Positions 21,895 through 40,898 of a stretch of DNA of 64,000 bases are shown piece by piece. Under the pieces are notes generated by a model. That model did no database searches. It was given only the letters and a program-made list of their open reading frames with translations, and was not told where the DNA came from. A program made the translations under genes and the position numbers. The stretch is from contig JAGXRG010000013.1 of NCBI GenBank assembly GCA_018335935.1, positions 62,001 to 126,000 on the forward strand, in the 5' to 3' direction. Position 1 is the first letter of the stretch. The number at the start of each line of letters is the position of its first letter. The stretch is from Chitinophagaceae bacterium (GTDB taxonomy: Bacteria > Bacteroidota > Bacteroidia > Chitinophagales > Chitinophagaceae).

Positions 21895-23541
21895 TTAAAC
21901 TTGAAAAACTCCTGTTTTAAATTCTTCAATTTTTGGATTATGATTGGCTGCATTAATAGCTTCTGAAATTAGTTTTCTGGTTTCAATAGGGTCAATAATA
22001 TCATCTACCCATAATCTTGCAGCTGCATAATATGGTGAAGTTTGTTTTTCGTATCTGTCTTTTATTTTATTCAACAATTCATTTTCATCTGCTTCGCTTA
22101 CTAATTTACCTTTAGATTTTTCGCTAGCTACTTGAATTTGTAATAAAGTTTTGGCAGCAGCATCACCACCCATTACAGCTATTTTAGCACTTGGCCAAGC
22201 ATAAATAAATCTTGGATCATATGCTTTACCACACATGGCATAATTGCCAGCTCCATAACTATTACCAACAATAATTGTAATTTTTGGAACAACAGAATTA
22301 GCTACTGCATTTACCAATTTAGCACCATCTTTAATTATGCCACTATGTTCACTTCTACTACCTACCATAAAACCAGTTACGTCTTGCAAAAACACTAATG
22401 GAATCTTCTTCTGATTACAATTCATTATAAAACGGGCAGCTTTATCTGCACTATCGTTATAAATAACACCACCCATTCTCATTTCACCATTTGCTGTTTT
22501 GGTAATGAGTCTTTGATTAGCCACAATACCAACTGCCCAACCATCAACCCTGGCATATCCACAAACTATTGATTTACCATAATCCTTTTTAAATTCATCA
22601 AAACTAGAATTTCCATTTTCATCTGCATCAACTATTCTGTCTATAATTTCTACAATATCATAAGGTTTAAGATTGTTTTCGCTCATAATACCATAAATCT
22701 CTTTTGCATCTTTAAATGAATTGTAAGATTTTATTCTATTAAAACCTGCTTTTTCATTTTCACCAATTCTTCCCATTAAGGTTTTAATATAATCTAAACA
22801 TTCTTTTTCGGTTTTAAATTTATAATCTGCTATTCCACTAATACTATTGTGTGTATCAGCACCGCCTAATATTTCATTATCAATATCTTCGCCTATTGCA
22901 GCTTTTACCAAATAGCTTCCTGCTAAAAAAATACTTCCATTGCCTTCAACCATTAAAGTCTCATCACTCATAATAGGTAAATAAGCACCACCAGCAACAC
23001 AAGCACCCATAACAGCAGCAATTTGAGTAATGCCCATTGCACTCATTTTTGCATTGTTTCTAAAGATTCTTCCAAAATGTTCTTTATCCGGAAAAATTTC
23101 ATCTTGCATGGGTAGAAACACACCTGCACTATCCACCAAATAAATAATTGGCAAGTGATTTTCCATAGCAATTTCTTGCATTCTCAAATTCTTTTTACCA
23201 GAAATAGGAAACCATGCACCAGCTTTAACAGTTTGATCATTTGCTACAATTACACATTGTTTTCCACTTACATATCCTATGCCTGCAACACATCCACCAG
23301 CTGGGCAGCCCCCTTGTTCTTCATACATTTCATATCCTACAAAAGCTCCAATTTCAATAAAGTTGGAACTTTTATCAATTAAATATTCAATTCTTTCTCT
23401 TGCTGTTAGTTTGTTTCTTTCAGCTTGTTTGGCCATAGATTTTTTTCCACCACCAAGTTTAATGATTTCATATTTTTGTTTTTTGTTACTAATTAGTAAC
23501 TTCATCCAATCTTCATTTCTATTAAACTCTAAATTTTGCAT
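21895..23541 (-). CDS. acyl-CoA carboxylase beta subunit (methylcrotonyl/propionyl-CoA carboxylase-like)
   Basis: KLTARERIEYLIDK, GKQCVIVANDQTVKAGAW, GGAYLPIMSDE, FLQDVTGFMVG, GNSYGAGNYAMCGKAYDPRF; likely start MQNLEFNRNEDW at 23541. Confidence 0.92.
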   Translation of the reverse strand: MQNLEFNRNEDWMKLLISNKKQKYEIIKLGGGKKSMAKQAERNKLTARERIEYLIDKSSNFIEIGAFVGYEMYEEQGGCPAGGCVAGIGYVSGKQCVIVANDQTVKAGAWFPISGKKNLRMQEIAMENHLPIIYLVDSAGVFLPMQDEIFPDKEHFGRIFRNNAKMSAMGITQIAAVMGACVAGGAYLPIMSDETLMVEGNGSIFLAGSYLVKAAIGEDIDNEILGGADTHNSISGIADYKFKTEKECLDYIKTLMGRIGENEKAGFNRIKSYNSFKDAKEIYGIMSENNLKPYDIVEIIDRIVDADENGNSSFDEFKKDYGKSIVCGYARVDGWAVGIVANQRLITKTANGEMRMGGVIYNDSADKAARFIMNCNQKKIPLVFLQDVTGFMVGSRSEHSGIIKDGAKLVNAVANSVVPKITIIVGNSYGAGNYAMCGKAYDPRFIYAWPSAKIAVMGGDAAAKTLLQIQVASEKSKGKLVSEADENELLNKIKDRYEKQTSPYYAAARLWVDDIIDPIETRKLISEAINAANHNPKIEEFKTGVFQV

Positions 23542-23627
23542 ACGAACAAATGTTAGTTTTGGCAAATATAGCTTGGGTTAAATTAAACTTTTAAGGATTA
23601 AATATATCGAAACCCCAATAACTGATT

Positions 23628-24176
23628 ATGATTCAACAAGAGGATAAAGAACTTTTAATTTTATTTAAGCAAACCGATAGTAAGGAAAAAGCCTTTACTG
23701 CTATTATAAAAAAATATCAGGAAAAATTATATTGGCACATTAGAAGAATGGTTGTAGAACATGAAGATGCTAACGATGTTTTACAAAACATGTTTATTAA
23801 AGTATGGAATGGCCTTGAAAATTTTAGAGAAGATAGTCAACTTTATACATGGTTATATAGAATAGCAACCAATGAAAGTTTGACTTTTATTGAACAACAA
23901 AAAAGAAAATCTGCCTCCAGTATTGATGATGAGGAAAACGGGTTAAGTGAAAAAGTTGCAGCAAGTGAAGGCTTTGATGTTAAAAAACTAGAATGGAAAT
24001 TGCAATTGGCTATACAAAAATTGCCCGAAAAACAGCGAGTTGTCTTTAACCTAAGATATTATGATGAAATGCCTTATGAAGAAATGAGTAGGGTATTAGA
24101 AACCAGTGAAGGAGCATTGAAAGCTAGTTATCATCATGCAGCTAAAAAAATTGAAGATTTTATTAGAAATTATTAA
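23628..24176 (+). CDS. ECF-type RNA polymerase sigma factor (sigma-70 family)
   Basis: EHEDANDVLQNMFIKVWNGLENFREDSQLYTWLYRIATNESL (region 2) and LPEKQRVVFNLRYYDEMPYEEMSRVLETSEGALKASYHHAAKKI (region 4). Confidence 0.95.
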   Translation: MIQQEDKELLILFKQTDSKEKAFTAIIKKYQEKLYWHIRRMVVEHEDANDVLQNMFIKVWNGLENFREDSQLYTWLYRIATNESLTFIEQQKRKSASSIDDEENGLSEKVAASEGFDVKKLEWKLQLAIQKLPEKQRVVFNLRYYDEMPYEEMSRVLETSEGALKASYHHAAKKIEDFIRNY

Positions 24177-24209
24177 ACTTTTACGTTCAAATACAGTCAG
24201 AATAACGTT

Positions 24210-24893
24210 ATGGGCGACGATTATAACATACTCAATCAAATAAAAAGCACAAATTCAGATACTTATAAAGTTCCAGAAGGATACTTTAATCATCTGGCAG
24301 ATAGCATTTTACTTAAAATTCAATCGAAAAATGCTTTCTATAGGGTGCCAAATAATTACTTCGATAATCTTTCTGATACAATTTTGGGTAAAATTAAAGC
24401 CCAATCTAGTGTAGAAACTTGTAATGAAGAATTGGCTACCATTGCACCATTATTAACACAAATCAGCAAAAAGAACGTTTATCAAGTACCAGAAAACTAT
24501 TTTAGTTCTTTTCAAGTTCAAGCTCTTGTTCAGCAAAAGCCAAAAATTGTTCAATTCAAATTTGTAAAAACTTATTTAAAATATGCTGTTGCTGCAGTAA
24601 TAGTTTCTGTAATTGCAGTTGGTGGTTTATTTCAACAGCATAATACTAGTCAACAAAGTTTAGCACTTCATCAACAAGTAAAACAGATTGATATTGAAAA
24701 AAGTATTAATCATATCAGTGATCAAGAATTAAATCAGGTTTTGGAAGAAGAACAATTGATAGCATATCAATCAACAAATAAATCAACAAGTTTGCCTTGG
24801 ACTAATTTAGACAATTTAGATGAAGAACTGAAATATGTTACAGATGAAGAAATAGACTCATATTTTAAAGAAAATAATATATCAATTAATTAA
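24210..24893 (+). CDS. putative sigma-linked membrane protein with three VPxxYF repeats (anti-sigma candidate)
   Basis: Three YxVPxxYF copies before one TM helix (YLKYAVAAVIVSVIAVGGLF); directly downstream of the ECF sigma gene. Confidence 0.65.
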   Translation: MGDDYNILNQIKSTNSDTYKVPEGYFNHLADSILLKIQSKNAFYRVPNNYFDNLSDTILGKIKAQSSVETCNEELATIAPLLTQISKKNVYQVPENYFSSFQVQALVQQKPKIVQFKFVKTYLKYAVAAVIVSVIAVGGLFQQHNTSQQSLALHQQVKQIDIEKSINHISDQELNQVLEEEQLIAYQSTNKSTSLPWTNLDNLDEELKYVTDEEIDSYFKENNISIN

Positions 24894-24903
24894 ATTACTT
24901 ATA

Positions 24904-25377
24904 ATGAAAAACTTTTTACTCATATTGCTTTTATCTCTTTCTGTTCCTGTATTTGCTCAGGAAAATGAAATGTACGAGCAAGATGAAATGATTGAAAATA
25001 GTAAAATGGCACAATCTATTGATGCACTTAAAATGGCTTATATTACTAAAGAGTTAAATCTTTCTCCAGATGAAGCACAAAAGTTTTGGCCTATATATAA
25101 TAGTTACTCTACTGAAATACGAAAAGCAAGAAAAGATTTTAAGGCAGATGATCTAGCCTTTCAAGAAAGGAAAGTAAACATTATGAAAAGATATCATGAA
25201 GATTTTAGAAGAGTTTTAAATAGTGAAATCCGCTCAAAACAGTGTTTTAAAGTAGAACCTGAATTTCATAAAGTATTAAGAAGAGAATGGCAACGAAGAC
25301 ATGGAAACACACTTCCTGATAAAAATATTAGAAATATTCGTCCAAACAATGTTAAACCTATAAAAATTAAACCTTAA
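24904..25377 (+). CDS. periplasmic Spy/CpxP-like sensor-type protein
   Basis: Signal peptide MKNFLLILLLSLSVPVFAQ; helical KELNLSPDEAQKFWPIYNSYSTEIRKARKDFK resembling the LTxxQ-type Spy/CpxP helix; same operon. Confidence 0.65.
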   Translation: MKNFLLILLLSLSVPVFAQENEMYEQDEMIENSKMAQSIDALKMAYITKELNLSPDEAQKFWPIYNSYSTEIRKARKDFKADDLAFQERKVNIMKRYHEDFRRVLNSEIRSKQCFKVEPEFHKVLRREWQRRHGNTLPDKNIRNIRPNNVKPIKIKP

Positions 25378-26269: not shown

Positions 26270-28918
26270 CTATAATTTGATAAGCTTAACAACTTTTCTT
26301 TCAGATCCTTGAGTTAATTCTAGTAAATAAACTCCTTTATTCCAGTTTTCGCCAAGAATTAAATTTGAGTTTGAATTAATTCCGTTTCTAACTTCAATTA
26401 ACTGGCCATAAATATTTACAGTTCTGGCAATTAATTGTCCTTCTGATTTACTATCTATTCTAATGTTAAATGAACTACTTGATGGGTTCGAAAATACTTT
26501 AACACTTAATGGACTAACTAATAAATTGTTGTCATCTACAATTGATCTTGATGCAGAATTTGGAGCACAAGGTAATTGATTACATGTACCTAGTCTATCT
26601 CCACCATGTAAACCAATATGAGCAGGTACAGCATTTACACTAATTGAAAGTGTTTGTGAATTACCAGGATTTCCAGAAGGTAAATGGCATACATAAACTT
26701 TACCTGTGTTTTTACCGTTTTTATCAAATACTCTGATGTCTGTAACACATATATCAATAGTACAAGTTGTTGTACATCCATATTTATTTGTAACTAGAAC
26801 AGTAAAACTATAATTGCCAGCTACAGTTGGTGTAAATACTGGGTTTGATGTGTTGGTATTACTTAAATTATTACCAGTCCAAGAATAAGTATAAGGTGCA
26901 CCACTTGATGGTGTTTCAACACTTAATGTGGTGCTTTGAGCTCCATATCCTAAATACAAGTTGGTTGATGTTCCTCCAGTAAAGGTTGTATTAGTTGGTA
27001 CTGATGTAATGCTACAAGTTGGAATTTCTCCTATTAGATTTACTGTTGTATTGCAAGTTGAAGTATTGCCACTAGCATCTGTTACAGTTAAAGTAACATT
27101 ATTTAATCCAAGGTCATTGCAATTAAATGAAGTTTTTGAATTTGCTAAACTTAATGTAACTATACCACAATTGTCATAACTTCCATTATCTACATCCGCG
27201 ATAGTAATACTTGCAGTTCCATTAACTAATGTAGCTGTTACTGGTTTGCAGATTGCGTTTGGAGCTTCATTATCTACAACTGTTACACTGAAAGAACAAG
27301 TAGCAGAGCCGCAATTATTATTTAAATTAGCAGTAACAGTTGTTGTTCCTATTGGAAATAAACTACCTGATGCTATAGAATAAGTAATTGTTGCACCAGT
27401 TGTACCAGTTACTGCAGGATAGTTTACAACTGCACCACATTGACCAGCATCATTATTTACAGTAATATTTGCAGGACAAGTAACCACCGGATCTTGACAA
27501 GTTGAAATAGTATAATCTTCGGCTTCGCCATAATATCCTGTAAAACAAGAATTCCCTGGATTATAGTAATAAGAATATTCTGAAATCACTCTTAATCTAT
27601 AATTTCCTGTTGCATTTGATGGCACAGTAAACGTAGCTGAACCTAGAGAACCATGATATGGTAAATATACATAAGAGGCTACTTGTTCGCCAGCATCATT
27701 AAAATCACCATCCTTATTCCAATCTACAAATACAGAAGCATATTGATCGTAATTTGCACCATTAATAGAAATGGTATAACTTGATCCTGGTGTTAATGTT
27801 GTTTGCATTGATGAGTAATCAGAATAACCACCATTACAAGAACTAGAATTATTAATTGTACCAAAAGATACATTTGAAATAAACATATATGAACACTGGT
27901 ATCCATATCCTGACGGAATACAATATGGTAAAATATCAACCAATCCATCACAATTATCATCAATGTTATTCCCTACAATTTCTGATGCATTTGGATGAAT
28001 GTTAGGATTATTATCGTTACAATCTCCTTGACAAACTGATAATCCATCTCCATCATGATCAATTTCATTGCTTGGAATTACTCCATCACAATTGTTATCT
28101 TTTCCATCACAAATTTCAGGAGCTCCTGGATATACAGATGGGTCATTATCGTCACAATCATCTTGAGTTCCACATGCTGCTCCTATTGCACTATGTCCAT
28201 CCCCGTCAGCATCAGGTGCACTAACTATTACATCAAAACTGCAATAACTTAAATTTCCTAAATCATCGCTTGCCGTTACATTAACAGTAGTAGTACCTAA
28301 AGGAAAATAAGAACCACTAGGTATAGAATATGTTACTGTAGGATTTGGATCTCTGTTATCTACTGCTGTTACACTATAGTTTGCAATTCCACCACAACTA
28401 TTGCTAACATTTACATTGTTACAAGTTAAAGCTGGGCCATAAGTATCATGAAATGTTTCAAGAATAGGTGAAGTTGGATATAAATTTGAGCAAGCTTCAT
28501 CGAAATAAATATTATTTCCTCCATTGATTGTTATTGAAGTTAAAACATCAAATACAACTGGTGCAAAATCGTAGTAAGCCCAATCATTATATGCATTGGC
28601 TTCACCACTACAAGCAGAAAGTACTTTAATATTAGCTCCACAATCTGATAAATTATTAATTGTTGTATTATTAATAGTACCAGTAGGATTAAGCCATTGG
28701 GTTGTTGTAGTTGTACCATAGGATGAAGTAACGGAAACTTGTCCAGCATTAAAATTATTCGGTAAATCTCCATGCCAGTGTTCTATAAATACTCTAATAA
28801 AACCATTATCTTGTAAACACCAAGCAACTTGAACACCATGTGCCGAAACACTCATTTGAAATATAAAAATTGTTAGTAGAGTATATATTATTCTTTTTAT
28901 TTTATGAATTATTTTCAT
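26270..28918 (-). CDS. large secreted protein: MopE-like metal-binding motifs, GEVED and HYR domains, T9SS C-terminal domain
   Basis: DADGDGHSAIGAACGTQDDCDDNDPSVYPGAPEICDGKDNNCDG; VDWNKDGDFNDAGEQV...GEAEDYT; repeated HYR-like VTCPANITVNNDAGQCGAVVNYP; C-terminal VKVFSNPSSSSFNI...GVYLLELTQGSERKVVKLIKL. Confidence 0.85.
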   Translation of the reverse strand: MKIIHKIKRIIYTLLTIFIFQMSVSAHGVQVAWCLQDNGFIRVFIEHWHGDLPNNFNAGQVSVTSSYGTTTTTQWLNPTGTINNTTINNLSDCGANIKVLSACSGEANAYNDWAYYDFAPVVFDVLTSITINGGNNIYFDEACSNLYPTSPILETFHDTYGPALTCNNVNVSNSCGGIANYSVTAVDNRDPNPTVTYSIPSGSYFPLGTTTVNVTASDDLGNLSYCSFDVIVSAPDADGDGHSAIGAACGTQDDCDDNDPSVYPGAPEICDGKDNNCDGVIPSNEIDHDGDGLSVCQGDCNDNNPNIHPNASEIVGNNIDDNCDGLVDILPYCIPSGYGYQCSYMFISNVSFGTINNSSSCNGGYSDYSSMQTTLTPGSSYTISINGANYDQYASVFVDWNKDGDFNDAGEQVASYVYLPYHGSLGSATFTVPSNATGNYRLRVISEYSYYYNPGNSCFTGYYGEAEDYTISTCQDPVVTCPANITVNNDAGQCGAVVNYPAVTGTTGATITYSIASGSLFPIGTTTVTANLNNNCGSATCSFSVTVVDNEAPNAICKPVTATLVNGTASITIADVDNGSYDNCGIVTLSLANSKTSFNCNDLGLNNVTLTVTDASGNTSTCNTTVNLIGEIPTCSITSVPTNTTFTGGTSTNLYLGYGAQSTTLSVETPSSGAPYTYSWTGNNLSNTNTSNPVFTPTVAGNYSFTVLVTNKYGCTTTCTIDICVTDIRVFDKNGKNTGKVYVCHLPSGNPGNSQTLSISVNAVPAHIGLHGGDRLGTCNQLPCAPNSASRSIVDDNNLLVSPLSVKVFSNPSSSSFNIRIDSKSEGQLIARTVNIYGQLIEVRNGINSNSNLILGENWNKGVYLLELTQGSERKVVKLIKL

Positions 28919-29662: not shown

Positions 29663-32600
29663 TTATTGAATGGCTTTAACCATTTTGGTATTACCTATTA
29701 TTCTTCCTTTATCATCAGCCACAACAACTGTATAAGTTCCAGAAGAAATATTCGTCACATTCATTGGAATGATAACTGAATTATTTCTATTCATTGGAAC
29801 ATCTTGTCTTTGTTGTTGAATTAATCTGCCATTCATATCAAATACTTTAACCGTTACTGAATTGGTATATTCAGGAACAGCCACTTCAACTTTAACATGG
29901 TTATTAGTTGGGTTAGGGTATAATAATACTTTTTGTGAAATAAATCTTGGATCTATACTTGGTAGGTTAACAACAGGTATAGAAGTATTGTTATTCACGC
30001 CTCTATAATTCGTAACACTTCCTGTATAAGTATAACCAGGATTAACTGGAATTGTAGTAGGTGTTGTACCATCTGGACTGAATGTTGCTATAGAAACATC
30101 ACTTACGCCTAAGTCACTAGTTACTGTTAAGGTCACTCTAAAAATATAGGTTGTTTCTATAGCAGTTTCAATTGCAAATTGTACATCAGCACCATTAACA
30201 AGTGCGTATTGCGTATAGTTTGTTCCTCCATCAGTTGAATATTCTACTTTTAAAGTTGAATTAGCTTGTAAAACACTACCTGTTACTACTGAGCTAGGAT
30301 TAGCTGGATTACTAAATCCGGTAATTCTAAAGTAAGAATAAGGTGTTGATCCTATTGAGCCAGTAAAAGGATTAGGTTGTTGAGCTGTAGTTTTTCTTAT
30401 TGAAATAACTGCTTTAGGTGTAATAGTTATGGTTACAGGGTTTGTAACTGTAGTAGTACAACCTGGAGCAGATGTAGCTGTTAATGTAATATTCTTAGTG
30501 CCTCCAGTAGCATAAGTAAATGCAGTTGGTGTTGCTGTATTTTGCCCCACCAGTGTTGGTGTTGCAGTTCCAGTAGTTGACCAAGCATAACTTGTAGCAC
30601 CAGTAGTTGCACTCGCATCAACAGTTACAGGTGGGTTAGCATAAATATCTGGATTACTGTAATTAACATTAGTAGTAAATGACACTACAGGTGGGTTATT
30701 TAAAGTAATCGGTGTATTATATGTTGATTGACAACCTTGATCTGATGTTACAGTTAAGATTACATCATAATTACCGGCAGCAGTATACAATATTCTTGGT
30801 TGAACATAGTTTCCTGCATGACCATCTCTAAATGTAATATTAGTATTACCAGGACTAAAGCTCCATGCCAATGTAATATTACCACTTGCTACAGTTGATA
30901 AACTTCTAAATGAGTAGTCATCATTAGCATCAAAACATCTTACTAATGGATTGCTTGGTCCGGTTGGAGTTAGATTTGTATTTAAATACAATTCATAGTA
31001 GGCCACAGGAGAAGCATTCACAGTCATAACCGCGTTATTGCTAGTAGTTGTACAACCACCAGAAGTATTCGAAGCAGTGTATGTTGTTGAACTGCTAGGT
31101 TTAGCATAAACAGTTGCAACACTTGTTCCAGTATATGGAATGGTTGCTAAAGCATCAGTATATAATCCTGCTGTAGGGCTCCAGATTGCAGCAACATTAG
31201 CAGTTAACAGAGTTGCAGCATCATTAGAACATCTTGTTGTATTAGCAGGGCTTATTGTAATTGCTGCTGGTGCTGCGTTTACAATTGCATCTACTTGAGT
31301 TCTTGCAGAAGTACAACCATTTTCTGTTGTAGCTACCCAGAAGCTAGTAGTTCCAGTTGTTAAACTTGGAGTAGTAAAGCTATTACCAGTTCCTAAAGAT
31401 GAGCCACCACTTGAAACATTATACCAGTTCAAAGTTCCTGAAGATGCAGTTGCTGTTAATACTACTGTACCATCTCCACAACGAGTTGCACCAGTTGAAC
31501 CAGTGATGGTTGGTGTGATAGTGATATTAGCAACACCATATTTGATTACTGTACTATTTACTGTAGTTGGACAAGTTCCAATAGCAGCAGTAGTTAATGT
31601 TGCAGTTAAAGTAGCATTATAATATCCGGCATTAGCATAAGACCAAGTTGGGTTAGCCACATTATTGGCACCAGTACCTGTGCCACCAAAATCCCATGCA
31701 TAAGTTACAGTACCAGATCCTCCTGTATTTTCAGTTATTGCACTTGTGAATGCATAACTATTACCTAATAAGCATTGGTTTGCTGTTGAGTTGCTTGTAA
31801 AGTCTGCAGTGATTTTAGGACAGTATTGCACTGTTTTAGCTAAAGGTGCAGATGAGCAACCATTTGAACCAGTTACAACTAAAGTAGCAGTGTAAACACC
31901 AGCAGTTGCATAAGTAACATTGATATTACTTCCTGAACCACTAGCAGGAGAACCACCAGTTGTTGTCCATGCATATGTCATATTTCCTGAAGGGAAAGAT
32001 GATGTACTATTGAATAGATAGTTGTTACCAACAGAAGGGTTGTTATTATAAATATCAAATCCTACGGTTGGAGAAGCTAATACTGTTATAAGCTGAGTTG
32101 CAGTATGAGATCCCACACCATTTGTAATAGTTAAGGTTACAGTATAGGTACCAGCATTTGCATAAGTTTTAGCAGGTGGGGTAGCTGTATTATCAGTTGT
32201 GCCATCACCAAAATTCCATGCATAAGTTACAGCACCACTTCCAATAGTTGAACTTGAGCTGTTGAATGTAAATGCTTGACTAGAACATTGTGAAGTAGCA
32301 TTTACACCAATTACAGCTATAGGAGCAGTACCAACAGTTACAGTTTTTGTAACAGTTGCTGTACATGGTCCAGTTGCTAAAGTTGTAGTTAATGTTATTT
32401 GATGTGTACCATAAGTTAAATTAATAACAGGATTTGGATCAGTTGAATGCGTAGTTGCACCTTCTGTCCAGGCATAAGTAGCACCTGCACCTGTAGAAAG
32501 GTTTGTAAATGTAACATCTTCACTTGTAGTGCCACCAGTTCCCACACTAAAGCTATAGTCAGCTGTTGGACTAGGGTTTACAGTAATATTATTAGTATAA

Positions 32601-35600
32601 GATGTAGATGTAATTACTCCATTATTATCCACAGTTAAGTTAACAGTATAAGTTCCAGCACTAGCATAAGTTAATGTTGGATTTTGAGCAGTTGTACTTG
32701 AGAAAGTACCACCTGCAGGAGTTGAAGACCAGCTATAAGTTACACCAGAACCTACAGCAGATGTATTAGTTAATACAAAGCTGTTACCAGTTAAACATTG
32801 TGTAGCATTGTTCACTAAAAATCCTGCAGCTGCACCTGTATTGTAAATAGTTTGAGTAGTTGTTGAAGTACAATTTCCATCACTAGTTACTAATAAAGTA
32901 GCAGTATAAAAATTCGGGCTTACAGGGAATGTAAATTGAGGGTTTTGATTGGTTGAAGCACCAATGGTTGCACCCACATTATTTTTAAATGTCCAGTCAT
33001 AGCTTAAACTTCCTTGAGATAATGTAGAAGTACTTGTAAAGCTAAACAAGCTACCACTTACAGTATATGTAAATCCTGCAACTGGTGTTGGTTTAACAAT
33101 CACTTGTTGGTTGCTATAGTAATCTTGACCATTGTGAGTAGCTTTTAAAACAACATTATAGTATCCTGCAGTAGTATAAACATGCGATGGGCTAAATGAA
33201 GTTGAAGTATTTCCATCACCAAATGTCCATAAATAGGTTACACCACTTAAAGGATAAGTACCAGTATTAGTAAACACATAGTTATTCGAAGCTAAACATT
33301 GTTGACTAGTATTCACTGTAAACGATGGATTAGGTGTAGTACTTACACCACCTGTACCAGTTACATTAATTGAAGTTGTGTTTCTAGTTCTGTTAATACA
33401 ACCCCATTGGCTTGTTACTATTAATGTAGCATCAGTATTACCAGAAGGTAAAGTTACTTGAGGATGTTGTACAGTTGATGTAGAAGACGCTGTATTAACA
33501 AAAGACCAAGCATAACTCATACTACCTTCAGTTAAGGTTGATGTGCTATAGAAATTATAATTAAAACCAGTATTTGAGTAAGTAAATGAAGAAACTGGGT
33601 TATGGCGTACAATTACTTGTTGGTTCGACCACACATCATTACCATTAGTAGTTGCTTTTAATTGTACATTATAGTAACCAGGTAAAGCATATGATTTTGT
33701 GTGAGGACCAGCACCAGTAGTTGATGTACCATCACCAAAATACCAAGTATAAACAGTACCACCAGTACCTGTTGAGGTATTGGTAAAGGTAAAGCTGTGT
33801 TTAACTTCAGTGTAAGGGTTAGGATTAGTGTTATTAGTTGTTACTATATAATCACACTTATCAGTTGCATCAACAGTAAATGATGAAGATGAACCACCAG
33901 TACCACCACTACCACCTGTGCCAGTTACATTGATTGCAGTAGTTTTTTCAACTCTATTAATACAACCCCATTGACTAGTTACAACTAAAGTAGCATTTGT
34001 GTTTCCTGCAGGTAAAGTTACTTGAGGATGTTGTACAGTTGAAGTAGAGGTAGCTGTATTAGCAAAAGTCCAAGCATAGCTCATACTACCTTCAGTTAAT
34101 GAAGAAGTACTAAAGAAATTATAATTAAAGCCATTATTTGAATAATTAAAGTCAGCAACTGGATTATAACGAACTATAACTTGTTGGCTCGACCACACAT
34201 CATTACCATTAGTAGTTGCCTTTAATTGTACATTATAGTAACCAGGTAAAGCATATGATTTTGTGTGAGGACCAGCACCAGTAGTTGATGTACCATCACC
34301 AAAATACCAAGTATAAACAGTACCACCAGTACCTGTTGAAGTATTGGTAAAGGTAAAGCTATGTTTAACTTCAGTGTAAGGGATGCCAATTGTTACTGCA
34401 TAATCACACTTATCTGTACCATTAACAGTAAATGATGAAGTAAGAGATCCAGAACCACCACTACCACTACTTACAGTAAATGCATTATTGGTAAAAGTGT
34501 TTACTGCACCAGCATCGGTAGTTACTTGTAAAGAAACTGTATAAGTACCTGCAGAAGGGAAGGTATATTGAGGACTCGCAGTAGTGAAAGTTACACCATT
34601 AATAGTCCATAAATAACTTGCTATACTACCTGTAGAAACAGTTGAGGTACTTGTAAAGTTGTATGTTAATCCAGTGTTGCTAGAAGTAAAGCTAGCTACA
34701 GGCATTGGATGAACAATTACTTGAGTTTGATATTGAGTTTTCTCAACAGCATCTAAGAATGATTTTACAACCACAGTATATGTACCTGGTGTATTGTAAG
34801 TATGTGTTGTTGAGCCAGGATTTGCAAATGATACAAATCCACCACCATCACCATAGTTAATAGTATAAGTAGAAACTCCACTAGTAGCATCAGTAGAAGC
34901 ATTAGTGAATGTAAATACGTTATTAGGTGTAGTTCCACCAGATGTATTTAAAGGTTGTTGCGTTGGGCTTACTGTAAAGAACGGAGTTGGATTGCTAGTT
35001 GCAGGGCCACCAGAACCACCAATAATTGATGTTGCAATGGTAGATGTTGCAGTACAACCTGCATCAGTCGTTACAGTTAAACGAATATTGTAAGAACCTG
35101 AAGTAGCAAAAGTTCTTTGAATGCTAGAACCAGTACCAAATTGTACAAAAGTTCCAGGAGTTACTTTATCATCACTCCAAGCATAAGTAGTAATATTTCC
35201 TTGAGCTATTGTTGAACTGCTCGAGAATGTATAAGAACCATTACCATTGTTAGTAGTATTAAAGCTTGCAGAAGGTAAAGGACCTACAGTAACTGATTTA
35301 CTGCTATAATAATCTATACCATTGAAAGTAGCTTTTAATTGAACCAAGTAAACACCATGAGCAGCATAAGTTTTTGTAACACTTAAGTTACTAGAAGTTG
35401 AAGTACCACCATCACCAAATGTCCATAAGTAAGTTGTACCTACAGGGTCACCAGAAGGTCTGTCAAAAGTGAATGTATTACCGGTAATACATTGAGTTGT
35501 GTTACTTGCAGTAGTAAATGCAGGGTTAGGAGTACTAGCCCCTGATGTAATAGTTACATTAACAGGAATTGTAATTGCACTAGAACAACCAGCATCACTA

Positions 35601-38600
35601 GTTACAGTTAAGGTAACATTTTTATTTCCACCAACAGAATAAGTAACCTGCGGACTATTCACAATTGAACTTGGAGGCGTTGAATTAGCACCAAAGGTCC
35701 AAGCATAATTCATATTACCACTACTAATAGTAGAGGTAGAAGTAAAGGTGTAACTACTTCCATTACCTGTATTCAATGTAGTATTAAAGTTAACTACAGG
35801 AATAGGGTTTACAGAAACGGTTAAAGTATAATAAGTGTCAATTCCATTTAATGTTTTAATTAACGTTACTTGGAAATTGCCGGCTTGTGTATAATTATGT
35901 GTTTGAGCTGCTGTAGATGTTGTAGTAACAACTGCAGAGCCATCACCAAAATTCCATTTATAAGTTGCACCTACATCAGGGCAACCCATATAGAATGTAA
36001 ATGGAGTGCTGCCACCTGTTACACATTTAGAAGGTTCAGCAGTATAAATACCTCCAACTGCAGCAACTATTGCTGTTCTTGCTGTTGAAGTACATCCATC
36101 ATTAGTTACAGCAACATAATAAGTTGTATTTGATGAAACACTAGGACTATATGTTGCAGCAGTAGCCCCAGGAATTGCAGTTCCACCAGTTGGTACAGTG
36201 TACCAGCTAAAAGTGCTTCCACTTAAAGATGAAGTTGCCGTTAAGTTAGCAGTACCAGCTGTACAAATTACTACCGGAGTGTTTGTACTGGTTATTGTTG
36301 GTCTTGGTTTAACCGTTACTGTAGCAGGAATTGTTGGACCTGTACAAACAGTTGAACCACTTGTATAAACTGGAGTTACAGAGAAAGTAACCACCAAAGC
36401 ATTAGTAGCAGAGTTGCTGAAAGTTCCAGAAATATTTCCTGAACCACTAGTAGCAATACTTCCTGTGATTTCTGGTTGAGTATTTCTTATCCAGTTATAA
36501 ACTGTACCAACAACATTACCTGTTAATGCAATAGGTGTTATAGCATCTCCAGAGCAAATGCTTTGAGCAGCAGGAGTTGCAACAGCATTAGGTTCTGGAA
36601 CAACTGTAACATCAACAGTAAATGATGCTCCTTGACATCCATCAGGAGAGGTTGGTGTAACAGTATATCTTACTACGCCTAATGTATTGCTAGAACTAGT
36701 TAAAGTTTGAGCTATTGTTGTACCACATCCACTTGTACAGTCACTAAATCCTGTAATGCTTGAAGCTACTCCAGAAATTTGTGCTGCAGTCCAAGTAAAT
36801 GTTGTAACAGGTACAGTTGAGTTTAATGCAACGTTAGTTGCAGTGCCAGAACAAATAGATTGAGCAGTAGCACTACCTACTGGTACAGGTTTAACATTAA
36901 TTGTATAAGTTGCAGTAGCTGCAGTACATGGTGCATTTGAAACAGTCATGGTTAATGTAACTGTTGTTCCTGCATCAAGTGCAGTTGGTGTATAAGTAGG
37001 TGTTAAAGTTGTTGCACCAGCAGTGATTGAACCACCTAAAGAACCAGAAGAGGTCATAGTAACACTTGTTGGTGAACAAACTGAATATTCATGAACCCAT
37101 CCAGTAAGTGGGAAACTTGAAATTGTTCCAGATGAATTTTGCCAATAATGAGGTATTCCAGGTGTTCCAGGACCAGCAGGTGCTGTAGAATATGTTAATG
37201 CCCATTTAGTACCAGTCCAATAAATAAATAAATTAGGTGTTGCAGATCCATTTAAATTATACTGTGGAGCACCATTTACATTTGTTCCAATATATGTATA
37301 AGTTCCATTTAATCCTGTACAGCTACTACCACCAGCAGGTACAATAACATTTAATGGTAAATTTGTTGCTCCATTTACTGTCCATAAAATTGTACCATTA
37401 GTAGTAGTTGCTTCACCACTTACCAAAGTATAAGATTGATCGGCACAAACTTGTTGAGTACCAGATGGTGTTGTAGAAGCTGTTGGTTGAGCTTTAACTT
37501 CAATTGTAAATGTTGTTGAAGTTGAGCTTTCACAACCATTTGCATTTTTAACAGTCAAATTACCTGTGTAAATTCCAGCATCTGTTGCAGCAGGAATATT
37601 TAAAGTTATTGGGCTTGCTCCTAAAACAGCATCAGTAACAGTTACAAAACTATTTGCTGGTGAAGGATCCCAAGTAATGCTATAAGTTGTTGGAGTTTCA
37701 GTTGTTGCAGAATAAGCTAAAGTTGTAGTTTGAGCTGATGCATTATAACAAACATCTGCAGCAGCAACACTATGAGTTATTGTAGGTAAAGGGTTAACAG
37801 TTACAGAAGTTGTAGCAGTATTAGAGCAAGTACCATTAGTGAAAGAATAAGTTACTGTGTATGTGCCAACAGTACTTGTACTAGGATTGATTTCGCCAGA
37901 GGTAGAATTTATTGATAATCCAGTAGTAGAGCTATAAGTTCCACCACCCTGTCCAGTTTGGGTAACAGTAGCAGAAGTCACATCTTTACAAAAAGGTGTA
38001 CTATAAGAAATTGATGCTTCAGGCGTTCTATTTAAAGTAATAATATAATTATTTGTATTACTAGCATCTTGAGAAGTTACCCTTACATCAATAGTATTGG
38101 TTCCAGAAGCTAAAGAAATACTGTTAGCAGCACCACTTGTCATTGGTATATATCCACCAGTGCCATTTAATTGATAGGCAACAGTTCCACCATAACCAGC
38201 AGCTACAGTTGGTGTAACATTAATACTTGTCAAGGCATTTGAAATACAAGCTGAATAAGAATAAGTGCCCACAGCAAAAGCTGGTGATAATGATCCAGGG
38301 CTAATGGTTAAATTGTCTAAATCTGCATTGGTTGCAGGATCATCTCCAAAAGAAAAAGGAGAAAAGCTTCCTGTATAATTAAATGTTACAGTAAAAGGAC
38401 CAGAGCCTGATGGTGTTGAAGTAACCCCAGTAACGGTTGTCCACTGACCACCTGTATAATGTAATAAAACTTTTTTGGTTGTATTAGAAGTGCCAACAGG
38501 TAAATCTCCATTATTATATTGGAAACTTAATGTTGCACTACCTGGTGCAGCACTTGGTGTAATATTCCATTGGCGTTGAATAGTTCTAGAAGCAGTAAAA

Positions 38601-40441
38601 GGAGATACAGTGCCACCAGCAGGAGCAGACACTATTGTATTTACAGTGTAGTTTGTTGTAACACCACTATTAGATATAGTTAAGGGTACAGATGTACTTG
38701 ATCCATCAGGAGCAACAGGGAAAACAACTGGATTAGAGGATACTTGTTGTCTAACTGCTCCATTTGTAGGTACAATCATTTTTGCAGTTCCAATGTATGT
38801 AGATGTACCATTAATATTTAATGTAGCATTTGAAGTTTGTGTTAGCGTTTTACCTGTATTAATAGTAAAATTGTTTACATTAATAACTCCTGCACTAGCA
38901 GCAAGTGTAATATTTGCATTAATTACTACATCTGCATTACTTGGTGGAATTTGATTCCCATCCCAAGTCGAAGATTGATCCCAAAAACCATTATCTGTAA
39001 CTGCAGTATAATTACTTCTTGTAACAGTAATTGTATAAGTTTTAGTTGTACCATTTTCTGCTGTAACTTTTATATCAATGGGATTTGCACCAAAGTTTAA
39101 AGCTAAAGCACTAGAGGCGGCTCCAGAATTAATATTTACATAAGTACCATTATTAACTCTAATTTGCAAAGTAGCATAAGTATCTGCAGCAGTTGGTGTA
39201 ACTGTTACAGTATTTGTAGAACTGGTAACGTTAACAGAATATGCAGTGGTAGCTAATACAAAACCTGGAGTTAAACTTCCTGAACTTATTGTAAGATTTG
39301 ATAAATCATTATTAGAGCTTATATGGCTTTTTTTACAAACAAATGAAGATTTTGCAGTTCCAGTACCATCACCTAATTGAAATTGATCATTTCTTCCTGC
39401 ACTGCAAATGAATGAAGAGTTATCTCTTATTCCATTTGAAAATTCACCACCAGCATAAATACTTGTCCAATCAGTAAGACTTCCAATTTGAATAGGACTA
39501 GTAGAAGCAATTGTAGTTCCATTGCCATATTGACCATAATTATTTTGACCCCAAGCCCATAGTGTGCCATTAGATTGTAAACCAATTTTGAAATTATCGC
39601 CTGAAACATCAATCCAATTTGTTGCTGAGCCAATTTGTGTAGGATTATCAATATTAGTTGTTGTTCCATTTCCTAGCTGACCAAAACTATTATAACCCCA
39701 ACCCCAAAGTGTTCCATCTGTTTTTATTGCCATTGTATGCCAACCGGAAGCAATCACTTTTTGCCAGTTGGTTGAAATGCCAATTTGTATTGGTGTTGTA
39801 CTACCAGCTGTACTGCCATTTCCCAATGATTTATATTCATTTCTTCCAAATGCCCACAAAGTGCCATTAGTTTTTATAGCCATAGTATGTTGATAGCCAC
39901 CACTTACACTTTGCCAGTTAGTAGCAGTACCGATTTGAATTGGCACATTCGAATTGGTAGTAGTTCCATTACCTAATTGTCCATGATTATTAGCACCCCA
40001 GGCCCATAAAGTTCCATCTGTTTTAATGGCTAAAGAATGAAAAGACCCTGCAGCTAATTTTGCCCAATTTGAGGCTGAACCCACTTGAATTGGAACATTA
40101 GAATTTGTGTTAGTTCCATTTCCTAATTGACCGTAATCGTTACGCCCCCAAGCCCAAATTGTTCCATCAGTTTTTAACCCTATGGAAAAATAGTATCCAG
40201 CACTAACTGAAAGCCAATTGTAAGCATTTCCAATTTGTTGAGGTGTGTTTTTATTAGCTGAAGTACCATCTCCTAATTGTCCAAAATTATTTAAGCCCCA
40301 GGCCCATAAACTGCCATCTGATTTAATGGCCAAAGTATGTTGTGTACCAGAAGCCAAAACAGACCATGTAACTTGGGCACTTGTATTACTGGTGTAAAAA
40401 CTTAGCAAAAACAATAATGCTATACTAAGCGTTTTAAACAT
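29663..40441 (-). CDS. giant (~3.6k aa) secreted T9SS protein: RCC1 repeats, cadherin-like beta-sandwich units, Ig-like and many PKD domains
   Basis: Signal peptide MFKTLSIALLFLLSFYTSNTSAQ at 40441 (the track start at 40594 adds a non-signal extension); RCC1 GTLWAWGxNxxGQLGNGT units; PKD WTFGDG.S.... units; C-terminal VLLYPNPTNNHVKVEVAV...GTYTVVVADDKGRIIGNTKMVKAIQ. Confidence 0.92.
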   Translation of the reverse strand: MFKTLSIALLFLLSFYTSNTSAQVTWSVLASGTQHTLAIKSDGSLWAWGLNNFGQLGDGTSANKNTPQQIGNAYNWLSVSAGYYFSIGLKTDGTIWAWGRNDYGQLGNGTNTNSNVPIQVGSASNWAKLAAGSFHSLAIKTDGTLWAWGANNHGQLGNGTTTNSNVPIQIGTATNWQSVSGGYQHTMAIKTNGTLWAFGRNEYKSLGNGSTAGSTTPIQIGISTNWQKVIASGWHTMAIKTDGTLWGWGYNSFGQLGNGTTTNIDNPTQIGSATNWIDVSGDNFKIGLQSNGTLWAWGQNNYGQYGNGTTIASTSPIQIGSLTDWTSIYAGGEFSNGIRDNSSFICSAGRNDQFQLGDGTGTAKSSFVCKKSHISSNNDLSNLTISSGSLTPGFVLATTAYSVNVTSSTNTVTVTPTAADTYATLQIRVNNGTYVNINSGAASSALALNFGANPIDIKVTAENGTTKTYTITVTRSNYTAVTDNGFWDQSSTWDGNQIPPSNADVVINANITLAASAGVINVNNFTINTGKTLTQTSNATLNINGTSTYIGTAKMIVPTNGAVRQQVSSNPVVFPVAPDGSSTSVPLTISNSGVTTNYTVNTIVSAPAGGTVSPFTASRTIQRQWNITPSAAPGSATLSFQYNNGDLPVGTSNTTKKVLLHYTGGQWTTVTGVTSTPSGSGPFTVTFNYTGSFSPFSFGDDPATNADLDNLTISPGSLSPAFAVGTYSYSACISNALTSINVTPTVAAGYGGTVAYQLNGTGGYIPMTSGAANSISLASGTNTIDVRVTSQDASNTNNYIITLNRTPEASISYSTPFCKDVTSATVTQTGQGGGTYSSTTGLSINSTSGEINPSTSTVGTYTVTYSFTNGTCSNTATTSVTVNPLPTITHSVAAADVCYNASAQTTTLAYSATTETPTTYSITWDPSPANSFVTVTDAVLGASPITLNIPAATDAGIYTGNLTVKNANGCESSTSTTFTIEVKAQPTASTTPSGTQQVCADQSYTLVSGEATTTNGTILWTVNGATNLPLNVIVPAGGSSCTGLNGTYTYIGTNVNGAPQYNLNGSATPNLFIYWTGTKWALTYSTAPAGPGTPGIPHYWQNSSGTISSFPLTGWVHEYSVCSPTSVTMTSSGSLGGSITAGATTLTPTYTPTALDAGTTVTLTMTVSNAPCTAATATYTINVKPVPVGSATAQSICSGTATNVALNSTVPVTTFTWTAAQISGVASSITGFSDCTSGCGTTIAQTLTSSSNTLGVVRYTVTPTSPDGCQGASFTVDVTVVPEPNAVATPAAQSICSGDAITPIALTGNVVGTVYNWIRNTQPEITGSIATSGSGNISGTFSNSATNALVVTFSVTPVYTSGSTVCTGPTIPATVTVKPRPTITSTNTPVVICTAGTANLTATSSLSGSTFSWYTVPTGGTAIPGATAATYSPSVSSNTTYYVAVTNDGCTSTARTAIVAAVGGIYTAEPSKCVTGGSTPFTFYMGCPDVGATYKWNFGDGSAVVTTTSTAAQTHNYTQAGNFQVTLIKTLNGIDTYYTLTVSVNPIPVVNFNTTLNTGNGSSYTFTSTSTISSGNMNYAWTFGANSTPPSSIVNSPQVTYSVGGNKNVTLTVTSDAGCSSAITIPVNVTITSGASTPNPAFTTASNTTQCITGNTFTFDRPSGDPVGTTYLWTFGDGGTSTSSNLSVTKTYAAHGVYLVQLKATFNGIDYYSSKSVTVGPLPSASFNTTNNGNGSYTFSSSSTIAQGNITTYAWSDDKVTPGTFVQFGTGSSIQRTFATSGSYNIRLTVTTDAGCTATSTIATSIIGGSGGPATSNPTPFFTVSPTQQPLNTSGGTTPNNVFTFTNASTDATSGVSTYTINYGDGGGFVSFANPGSTTHTYNTPGTYTVVVKSFLDAVEKTQYQTQVIVHPMPVASFTSSNTGLTYNFTSTSTVSTGSIASYLWTINGVTFTTASPQYTFPSAGTYTVSLQVTTDAGAVNTFTNNAFTVSSGSGGSGSLTSSFTVNGTDKCDYAVTIGIPYTEVKHSFTFTNTSTGTGGTVYTWYFGDGTSTTGAGPHTKSYALPGYYNVQLKATTNGNDVWSSQQVIVRYNPVADFNYSNNGFNYNFFSTSSLTEGSMSYAWTFANTATSTSTVQHPQVTLPAGNTNATLVVTSQWGCINRVEKTTAINVTGTGGSGGTGGSSSSFTVDATDKCDYIVTTNNTNPNPYTEVKHSFTFTNTSTGTGGTVYTWYFGDGTSTTGAGPHTKSYALPGYYNVQLKATTNGNDVWSNQQVIVRHNPVSSFTYSNTGFNYNFYSTSTLTEGSMSYAWSFVNTASSTSTVQHPQVTLPSGNTDATLIVTSQWGCINRTRNTTSINVTGTGGVSTTPNPSFTVNTSQQCLASNNYVFTNTGTYPLSGVTYLWTFGDGNTSTSFSPSHVYTTAGYYNVVLKATHNGQDYYSNQQVIVKPTPVAGFTYTVSGSLFSFTSTSTLSQGSLSYDWTFKNNVGATIGASTNQNPQFTFPVSPNFYTATLLVTSDGNCTSTTTQTIYNTGAAAGFLVNNATQCLTGNSFVLTNTSAVGSGVTYSWSSTPAGGTFSSTTAQNPTLTYASAGTYTVNLTVDNNGVITSTSYTNNITVNPSPTADYSFSVGTGGTTSEDVTFTNLSTGAGATYAWTEGATTHSTDPNPVINLTYGTHQITLTTTLATGPCTATVTKTVTVGTAPIAVIGVNATSQCSSQAFTFNSSSSTIGSGAVTYAWNFGDGTTDNTATPPAKTYANAGTYTVTLTITNGVGSHTATQLITVLASPTVGFDIYNNNPSVGNNYLFNSTSSFPSGNMTYAWTTTGGSPASGSGSNINVTYATAGVYTATLVVTGSNGCSSAPLAKTVQYCPKITADFTSNSTANQCLLGNSYAFTSAITENTGGSGTVTYAWDFGGTGTGANNVANPTWSYANAGYYNATLTATLTTAAIGTCPTTVNSTVIKYGVANITITPTITGSTGATRCGDGTVVLTATASSGTLNWYNVSSGGSSLGTGNSFTTPSLTTGTTSFWVATTENGCTSARTQVDAIVNAAPAAITISPANTTRCSNDAATLLTANVAAIWSPTAGLYTDALATIPYTGTSVATVYAKPSSSTTYTASNTSGGCTTTSNNAVMTVNASPVAYYELYLNTNLTPTGPSNPLVRCFDANDDYSFRSLSTVASGNITLAWSFSPGNTNITFRDGHAGNYVQPRILYTAAGNYDVILTVTSDQGCQSTYNTPITLNNPPVVSFTTNVNYSNPDIYANPPVTVDASATTGATSYAWSTTGTATPTLVGQNTATPTAFTYATGGTKNITLTATSAPGCTTTVTNPVTITITPKAVISIRKTTAQQPNPFTGSIGSTPYSYFRITGFSNPANPSSVVTGSVLQANSTLKVEYSTDGGTNYTQYALVNGADVQFAIETAIETTYIFRVTLTVTSDLGVSDVSIATFSPDGTTPTTIPVNPGYTYTGSVTNYRGVNNNTSIPVVNLPSIDPRFISQKVLLYPNPTNNHVKVEVAVPEYTNSVTVKVFDMNGRLIQQQRQDVPMNRNNSVIIPMNVTNISSGTYTVVVADDKGRIIGNTKMVKAIQ
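33626..33818 (-). repeat. internal direct repeat copy A (period 564 bp)
   Basis: Near-identical to 34190-34382, about 3 mismatches over ~193 nt by eye; encodes a PKD unit. Confidence 0.9.
34190..34382 (-). repeat. internal direct repeat copy B (period 564 bp)
   Basis: See copy A; 564 bp = 188 codons, so the duplication is in frame. Confidence 0.9.
39430..40370 (-). repeat. RCC1-type ~50-aa (about 150-bp) repeats
   Basis: About seven copies of W..V..G..H..AIKTDGTLWAWG.N..GQLGNGT..N...P.QIG in the translation. Confidence 0.85.
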
Positions 40442-40898
40442 TGTAAATTTTGGCTTTATAAATTGAGAATTAGAAGGTTGTTTCGTGTTCTGCTCAGATT
40501 TCAATTTGCACACACTAACTGATTTTGCTATGTTTTTGATAACTTTTAAATAAAGTTGTTTTGGCAAATGGCTGGTTGTAGAATTTAAACTCATAACTTA
40601 AGATTGTGGCTTATTGAAGTATAAATTGTTAGTTTGCACAACAATACGAGTAGCGAAATTCTTGTAAAACTGTAAATTAATATATCCCTTAAACTAGTGT
40701 AACTTTTGTTTCATTAATTTAAAATCACACAATAAAGTAATTTAATTCGCCTTTCCTCAGCTTGACCATTCAAAATAAATAGGCTTTTATTCTTGCATTT
40801 CTTCAATTAATCATGCATAAATACCTTTCACAAATTTTTATTGAAAAAATAAAAAGGAGATTGTTTCTTTGTAGTAATTAAACTAAAAATAGATTTAA

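Follow-up and report, generated by a model that had tools for sequence, protein, structure and literature searches.

The window analysed here, a 64-kb stretch of a Chitinophagaceae genome, encodes an RpoE-like ECF sigma factor followed by a 227-aa membrane protein, and this locus raises the question of whether the membrane protein is the anti-sigma factor of its neighbour and how three copies of a VPxxYF unit would hold the sigma factor. The initial annotation described three repeats ahead of a single TM helix, 3′ of the ECF sigma gene, and no obvious zinc anti-sigma motif; the ORF indeed reads this way, and Hx3Cx2C is absent from the 227-aa protein. The features of the locus are as follows.

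23584..23608, + strand: bipartite, promoter-like motif ahead of the sigma gene, TAAACTTTT-N13-ATC; exact pattern match
23628..24176, + strand: RpoE-like ECF sigma factor, 182 aa, with Sigma70_r2 and Sigma70_r4_2
24174..24198, + strand: second bipartite motif TAAACTTTT-N13-GTC, beginning at the sigma stop codon
24210..24893, + strand: candidate anti-sigma factor, 227 aa, with three VPxxYF units and one TM helix
24225..24329, + strand: unit 1, NILNQIKSTNSDTYKVPEGYFNHLADSILLKIQSK; 22.1 bits by the HMM of single-copy units
24330..24407, + strand: unit 2, NAFYRVPNNYFDNLSDTILGKIKAQS; 27.7 bits; the HMM match covers residues 31-66 and overlaps unit 1
24450..24515, + strand: unit 3, LLTQISKKNVYQVPENYFSSFQ; 21.9 bits; short, without most of the second helix
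24576..24632, + strand: TM helix LKYAVAAVIVSVIAVGGLF, residues 123-141; mean hydropathy 2.15
24633..24890, + strand: periplasmic part, with two acidic motifs resembling ISDEELxxYL of relatives
24714-24743, + strand: acidic motif ISDQELNQVL in the periplasmic part
24837-24866, + strand: acidic motif VTDEEIDSYF in the periplasmic part
24904..25377, + strand: Spy-like small secreted protein, 157 aa; a homologue lies 3′ of the anti-sigma gene in relatives

The sigma ORF and the candidate anti-sigma ORF are separated by 33 nt, and the closest solved structures of the sigma protein are P. aeruginosa sigma-H (2.6e-21) and E. coli sigma-E (1or7, 1e-20). Elsewhere in the window, an acyl-CoA carboxylase carboxyltransferase-like gene (21895-23565, - strand) is divergent from the sigma gene, with the same neighbour in L004, and the - strand further encodes a large secreted protein (26270-28918) that has DxDxDG-type repeats and ends in a sorting-like tail at its C-terminus, as well as a 3643-aa ORF (29663-40594) whose product is probably a giant surface protein.

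The VPxxYF motif is located at residues 21, 46 and 93 of the 227-aa protein, at spacings of 25 and 47 residues. No other window ORF of 100 aa or more contains it (54 ORFs including this one, 20,221 residues), and more than one copy was reached in 0 of 20,000 shuffles of the protein. An HMM trained solely on single-copy units of other genomes detected all three window units at 21.9 to 27.7 bits, whereas neither the 300 shuffles nor the remaining window ORFs scored above 4.4 bits. The unit exceeds the motif, consisting of a helix, then [NK]P[FY]xVPxGYF, then ExLxxxILxKI, and its core, [NK]P[FY]xVPxGYF[ED]xLxxx[IV][LM]x[KR][IL] over 295 units, is identical in single- and multi-copy proteins. Neighbouring units are mostly 29-47 residues apart (median 37), and a helix resembling EELxxLSPLL precedes some of them. 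In three-copy proteins the median unit scores by position are 19.8, 20.6 and 21.0 bits, and such similar scores at all three positions indicate that no copy is decaying. No family match for the 227-aa protein was obtained in Pfam, NCBIfam, PADLOC or the solved structures of the PDB, the FecR/DUF4974 domain (Pfam) is absent from it, and a literature search with the motif strings returned no match.

The reading in the initial annotation would fail if VPxxYF proteins in other genomes stood apart from ECF sigma genes; surveys instead found the linkage to be near universal. Homologues of the 227-aa protein were identified in 36 of 61 relatives, and all 30 of the relatives' loci that were fetched carry the sigma gene, the VPxxYF gene and the Spy-like gene in this order on one strand. 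At the level of the phylum, profile matches were obtained in 120 of 396 genomes, and at loci with good matches the sigma gene lies directly upstream in nearly all cases, with 1 to 7 copies of the motif. A1 profile matches at loci that have no sigma gene next to them (L104-L108, L110, L120) were left out, as they matched outside the VPxxYF part. To avoid selection on VPxxYF, one order was surveyed with the sigma factor as the query. The sigma factor is present in 116 of 150 genomes of this order, nearly always once, and the gene 3′ of it carries VPxxYF in 65 of 70 loci, with one copy in 15, two in 22, three in 15, four in 4, five in 3, six in 5 and eight in 1; the next genes at the remaining five loci comprise two degenerate, one unrelated and two unreadable ones. 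Of these 70 loci, 66 also have a Spy-like gene. At L299, L301 and L306, the orthologous sigma gene is followed by a degenerate VPxxYF or none. Among named Bacteroides and Phocaeicola, 77 of 80 loci carry the sigma factor together with the VPxxYF protein, nearly all single-copy, and the single-copy form is widespread in Bacteroides and Flavobacterium-type genomes. Identity among relatives is 56-86% for the sigma factor and 23-39% for the anti-sigma, in which VPxxYF and the start of the TM helix are conserved spots in an otherwise divergent protein. The 227-aa protein belongs to a Bacteroidota-wide family without a name and is a candidate anti-sigma factor.

The most extreme copy numbers were observed at L270 (eight) and L052 (seven); the units within L052 are 62% identical, which suggests recent tandem duplication. 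Another ECF sigma/anti-sigma-like pair of the source genome (L099, C12:185544) is without VPxxYF, so that the unit seems to be specific to one sigma subfamily.

An anti-sigma factor would contact its sigma factor on the cytoplasmic side, and the initial annotation had placed the units there. The family collection agrees with this placement: VPxxYF lies ahead of the TM helix in 412 of 413 copies, and lysine and arginine are in excess on the N side of the helix in 186 proteins and on the C side in 3, in counts from two surveys that share some genomes. In the window protein, too, the positive charges flank the TM helix on its N-terminal side, and about 86 residues follow the helix. The two acidic motifs in this periplasmic part could possibly serve as a signal-sensing or protease site, and the strict form of the acidic pattern occurs in only a minority of family members.

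A genetic precedent for the proposed anti-sigma role is provided by Phocaeicola vulgatus, in which deletion of cirZ raises the expression of cirY and spy together with that of two genes further downstream (PMC13114119), so that CirZ, a family member from a paralogous pair, behaves genetically as an anti-sigma factor. We found the operon in P. vulgatus ATCC 8482 (L208) as sigma factor, 120-aa protein, Spy, CBM9_2 and Glucosaminidase with LysM; this gene order matches the published one, identifying the 120-aa protein as CirZ. It carries one variant unit, MPYRTPDGFFGKM (YRTPDGFF / RTPDGFF), which the HMM trained on single-copy units scores at 21.8 bits. In the sigma tree, CirY occupies a branch different from that of the window sigma factor, and the precedent set by CirZ is therefore that of a paralogue, not of an orthologue. 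These data bear on the reading that the window protein is merely a co-transcribed membrane stress protein with no anti-sigma function. The lack of a Pfam, NCBIfam or solved-structure match would suit such a protein, but we regard this reading as highly improbable in view of the CirZ genetics, the near-universal sigma linkage, the topology, and the zinc anti-sigmas that deep-branching relatives carry at this place in the operon.

These deep branches of the phylum have sigma factors of the same subfamily (phmmer 1e-43 to 1e-50), and there the next gene encodes a zinc anti-sigma, as in L092, where zf-HC2 matches at 3e-05. The zinc forms (Hx3Cx2C) carry one (V/I)PxxYFxNLxPRIxxRL segment between the finger and the TM helix, and the profile of the single-copy unit aligns to this finger-TM segment (hhalign, 94.7%, E 5.7e-8; reversed control 0.48%). 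Hx3Cx2C occurs in 2 of the 250 collected proteins (L092, L109). On an unrooted fasttree tree of the sigma factors, the zinc-bearing set needs a single change (branch support 85), and the copy-number classes change many times; on such an unrooted tree, the change may have run from the zinc form to the zinc-less form. In L092 and L308-L330, the zinc anti-sigma has a VPxxYF-like stretch ahead of its TM helix, and these proteins are possible evolutionary intermediates.

Hx3Cx2C is present in about 56% of ASDIs and is thus not required. The class I domain reaches sigma4 through helix 1 and sigma2 through helix 4 (PMC7406223), and the position of the unit between finger and TM helix would make it correspond to helix 4. 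The match to the finger-TM segment of zinc anti-sigmas gives a concrete reason to call the unit sigma-binding. Most likely, the unit corresponds to the sigma2-binding helix-4 segment of the class I domain, kept without zinc and multiplied, which would place its contact on sigma2, and the family seems to be related to the classic zinc anti-sigmas but without their zinc. The strong conservation of VPxxYF, the most conserved part of the protein, could hold for any partner, and the units might instead bind a membrane protease, a scaffold or RNA polymerase, while another stretch of the cytoplasmic part provides the anti-sigma activity. We judge this improbable, because many single-copy members are about 120-145 aa long and have a short cytoplasmic part that consists mostly of the unit, and because the position of the unit matches the sigma2-binding segment of the zinc anti-sigmas. 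In-frame sigma-anti-sigma fusions, with the stop codon read as Gly, were modelled by AlphaFold2 for the window pair (three units) and for P. plebeius (one unit); with pLDDT of 52 and 55 and pTM of 0.29 and 0.34, they gave no usable interface, and a helix was set on either side of the motif at low confidence.

If the units are sigma-binding, they could share one sigma factor or each take their own. Class I and class II anti-sigmas hold a single sigma factor via two interfaces, sigma4 and sigma2, and dual binding is general in classes I to III (PMC7406223). Tandem units may likewise act on one sigma factor, one of them on sigma2 and another unit or the pre-motif helix on sigma4, replacing the zinc bundle. 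We put this forward tentatively, at somewhat less than an even chance: the 29-47 residues between most neighbouring units, the EELxxLSPLL-like helix before some of them and the low-confidence helices on both sides of the motif are consistent with it, but it leaves unexplained the arrays of five to eight units and the apparent sufficiency of single-unit proteins. The initial annotation suggested that the array may be multivalent and titrate several sigma factors. In such a titrator each unit would bind its own sigma factor, so that about three would be stored in the window protein and up to eight in relatives, with copy number tuning the threshold. A single unit does appear to suffice in single-copy clades, and CirZ, too, represses with only one; the equal scores within three-copy proteins and the bead-like spacing (median 37 residues) also point this way. 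We nevertheless find this arrangement doubtful, since a lone helix-4 unit may be weak where class I and II proteins bind one sigma factor via two interfaces (PMC7406223), and units only 25 residues apart, as window units 1 and 2 are, may clash sterically. The broadest form of the idea, a phylum-specific class in which the zinc finger was lost, the sigma2-binding helix was serially duplicated, several sigma factors are held and the copy number (1-8) sets the threshold, we consider unlikely.

The DNA around the sigma gene was also examined for regulation. The motif TAAAC(C/T)TTT-N13-GTC(TAA) was scored in other loci as TAAAC-N18-TC. In the 64-kb window, the exact pattern has two matches, at 23584 and 24174, where 0.45 are expected, and at least two matches were reached in 4 of 100 shuffles; the copy at the sigma stop codon lies 11 nt before the next ATG. 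The motif is conserved across the phylum: in three sets of loci, the sigma stop codon carries TAAAC-N18-TC in 46/54, 32/48 and 72/77 and the region upstream of the sigma gene in 29/54, 31/48 and 33/77, with about 1 per set in shuffles, and GTCTAA is strongly conserved at the sigma stop codon in Bacteroides. The E. coli sigma-E promoter is GGAACTT-N15-GTCTAA, which the window motif resembles, in keeping with an RpoE-like sigma factor. Over the whole genome TAAAC...TC is not enriched (13 matches against 19 in the reversed control), and promoter activity is accordingly suggested by position and conservation; a genome-wide regulon drawn from the promoter pattern did not rise above the control and was dropped. 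Autoregulation of the sigma gene, with an extra promoter at its stop codon for the anti-sigma and the chaperone, is what we infer from these positions.

Taken together, the window protein probably acts as a membrane-bound anti-sigma factor in an RpoE-like module for envelope stress, made up of sigma factor, anti-sigma factor and Spy-like chaperone, in which the units would hold the sigma factor and negative feedback would operate. The conserved operon, the homology of the units within the family, the topology, the profile match to the zinc form and the conserved DNA motifs, all computed here, form the basis of this reading, together with the published derepression of cirY and spy upon cirZ deletion. 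On the cytoplasmic side, three docking units, each of a helix, a PYxVPxGYF loop and an ExLxxxILxKI helix, would keep the sigma factor at the membrane by direct binding when there is no stress. A periplasmic signal, presumably sensed via the C-terminal part, would free it, probably by proteolysis. The free sigma factor would then drive its own gene from the upstream promoter, and the second promoter at the sigma stop codon would add to the supply of anti-sigma and Spy-like chaperone, which would complete a loop of negative feedback.

Class I anti-sigma domains were found beside only 6% of Bacteroidetes ECF genes, and the RpoE-like group ECF03 has no conserved anti-sigma (PMC7406223). The VPxxYF family is a candidate for part of the missing anti-sigmas of Bacteroidetes RpoE-like sigma factors, possibly those of ECF03 itself. 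It offers a short recognisable unit, with one ortholog per genome across most of the order, its zinc-bearing relative ties it to known anti-sigmas, and its natural series of one to eight units provides a way to study sigma-holding capacity against the stress response.

Among known systems, the class I proteins RseA, ChrR, RsiW and RskA are likewise membrane anti-sigmas beside an RpoE-like ECF sigma factor, whereas the window protein has neither Hx3Cx2C nor a Pfam anti-sigma domain match, and the VPxxYF family, unlike class I, repeats the segment 1 to 8 times. The likeness to the class II protein CnrY is one of analogy only: in CnrY, two helices in a short cytoplasmic part that lacks zinc precede a single TM helix (PMC7406223), but it belongs to a different phylum, is without repeats and gave no sequence match to the window protein among the solved structures of the PDB. 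Reo and Dma of Bacteroides are also Bacteroidota anti-sigmas beside ECF genes and linked to envelope stress; we rejected them as close relatives on architecture, since they are much larger and contain an outer-membrane beta-barrel, compared with 227 aa in the window protein. Like the CirZ-type family, the window protein carries at least one PFxVPxGYF unit N-terminal of a single TM helix, and its gene lies directly after an RpoE-like ECF sigma gene and before a Spy-like gene. The CirY/CirZ/Spy operon, whose Spy counterpart is termed the Spy chaperone (PMC13114119, 2026), shares with the window the gene order and a unit ahead of one TM helix, but CirZ has one unit against three, CBM9 and Glucosaminidase-LysM genes follow as a feature of the P. 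vulgatus operon, and, unlike the window, cirY and cirZ leave no gap for an internal promoter. A second set in P. vulgatus ATCC 8482 (L183) lies before PUL35, in the M0N98_01970 region, and its place beside a SusC/SusD pair matches the second Spy region of PMC13114119; we therefore rejected it as CirZ, which is at L208. The L183 set has the same order of sigma, anti-sigma and Spy genes as the window, its anti-sigma bears one canonical unit (FMVPEGYF, 73.8 bits) against three in the window protein, and its sigma stop codon carries TAAACCTTT...ATCTAA, comparable to the window motif.
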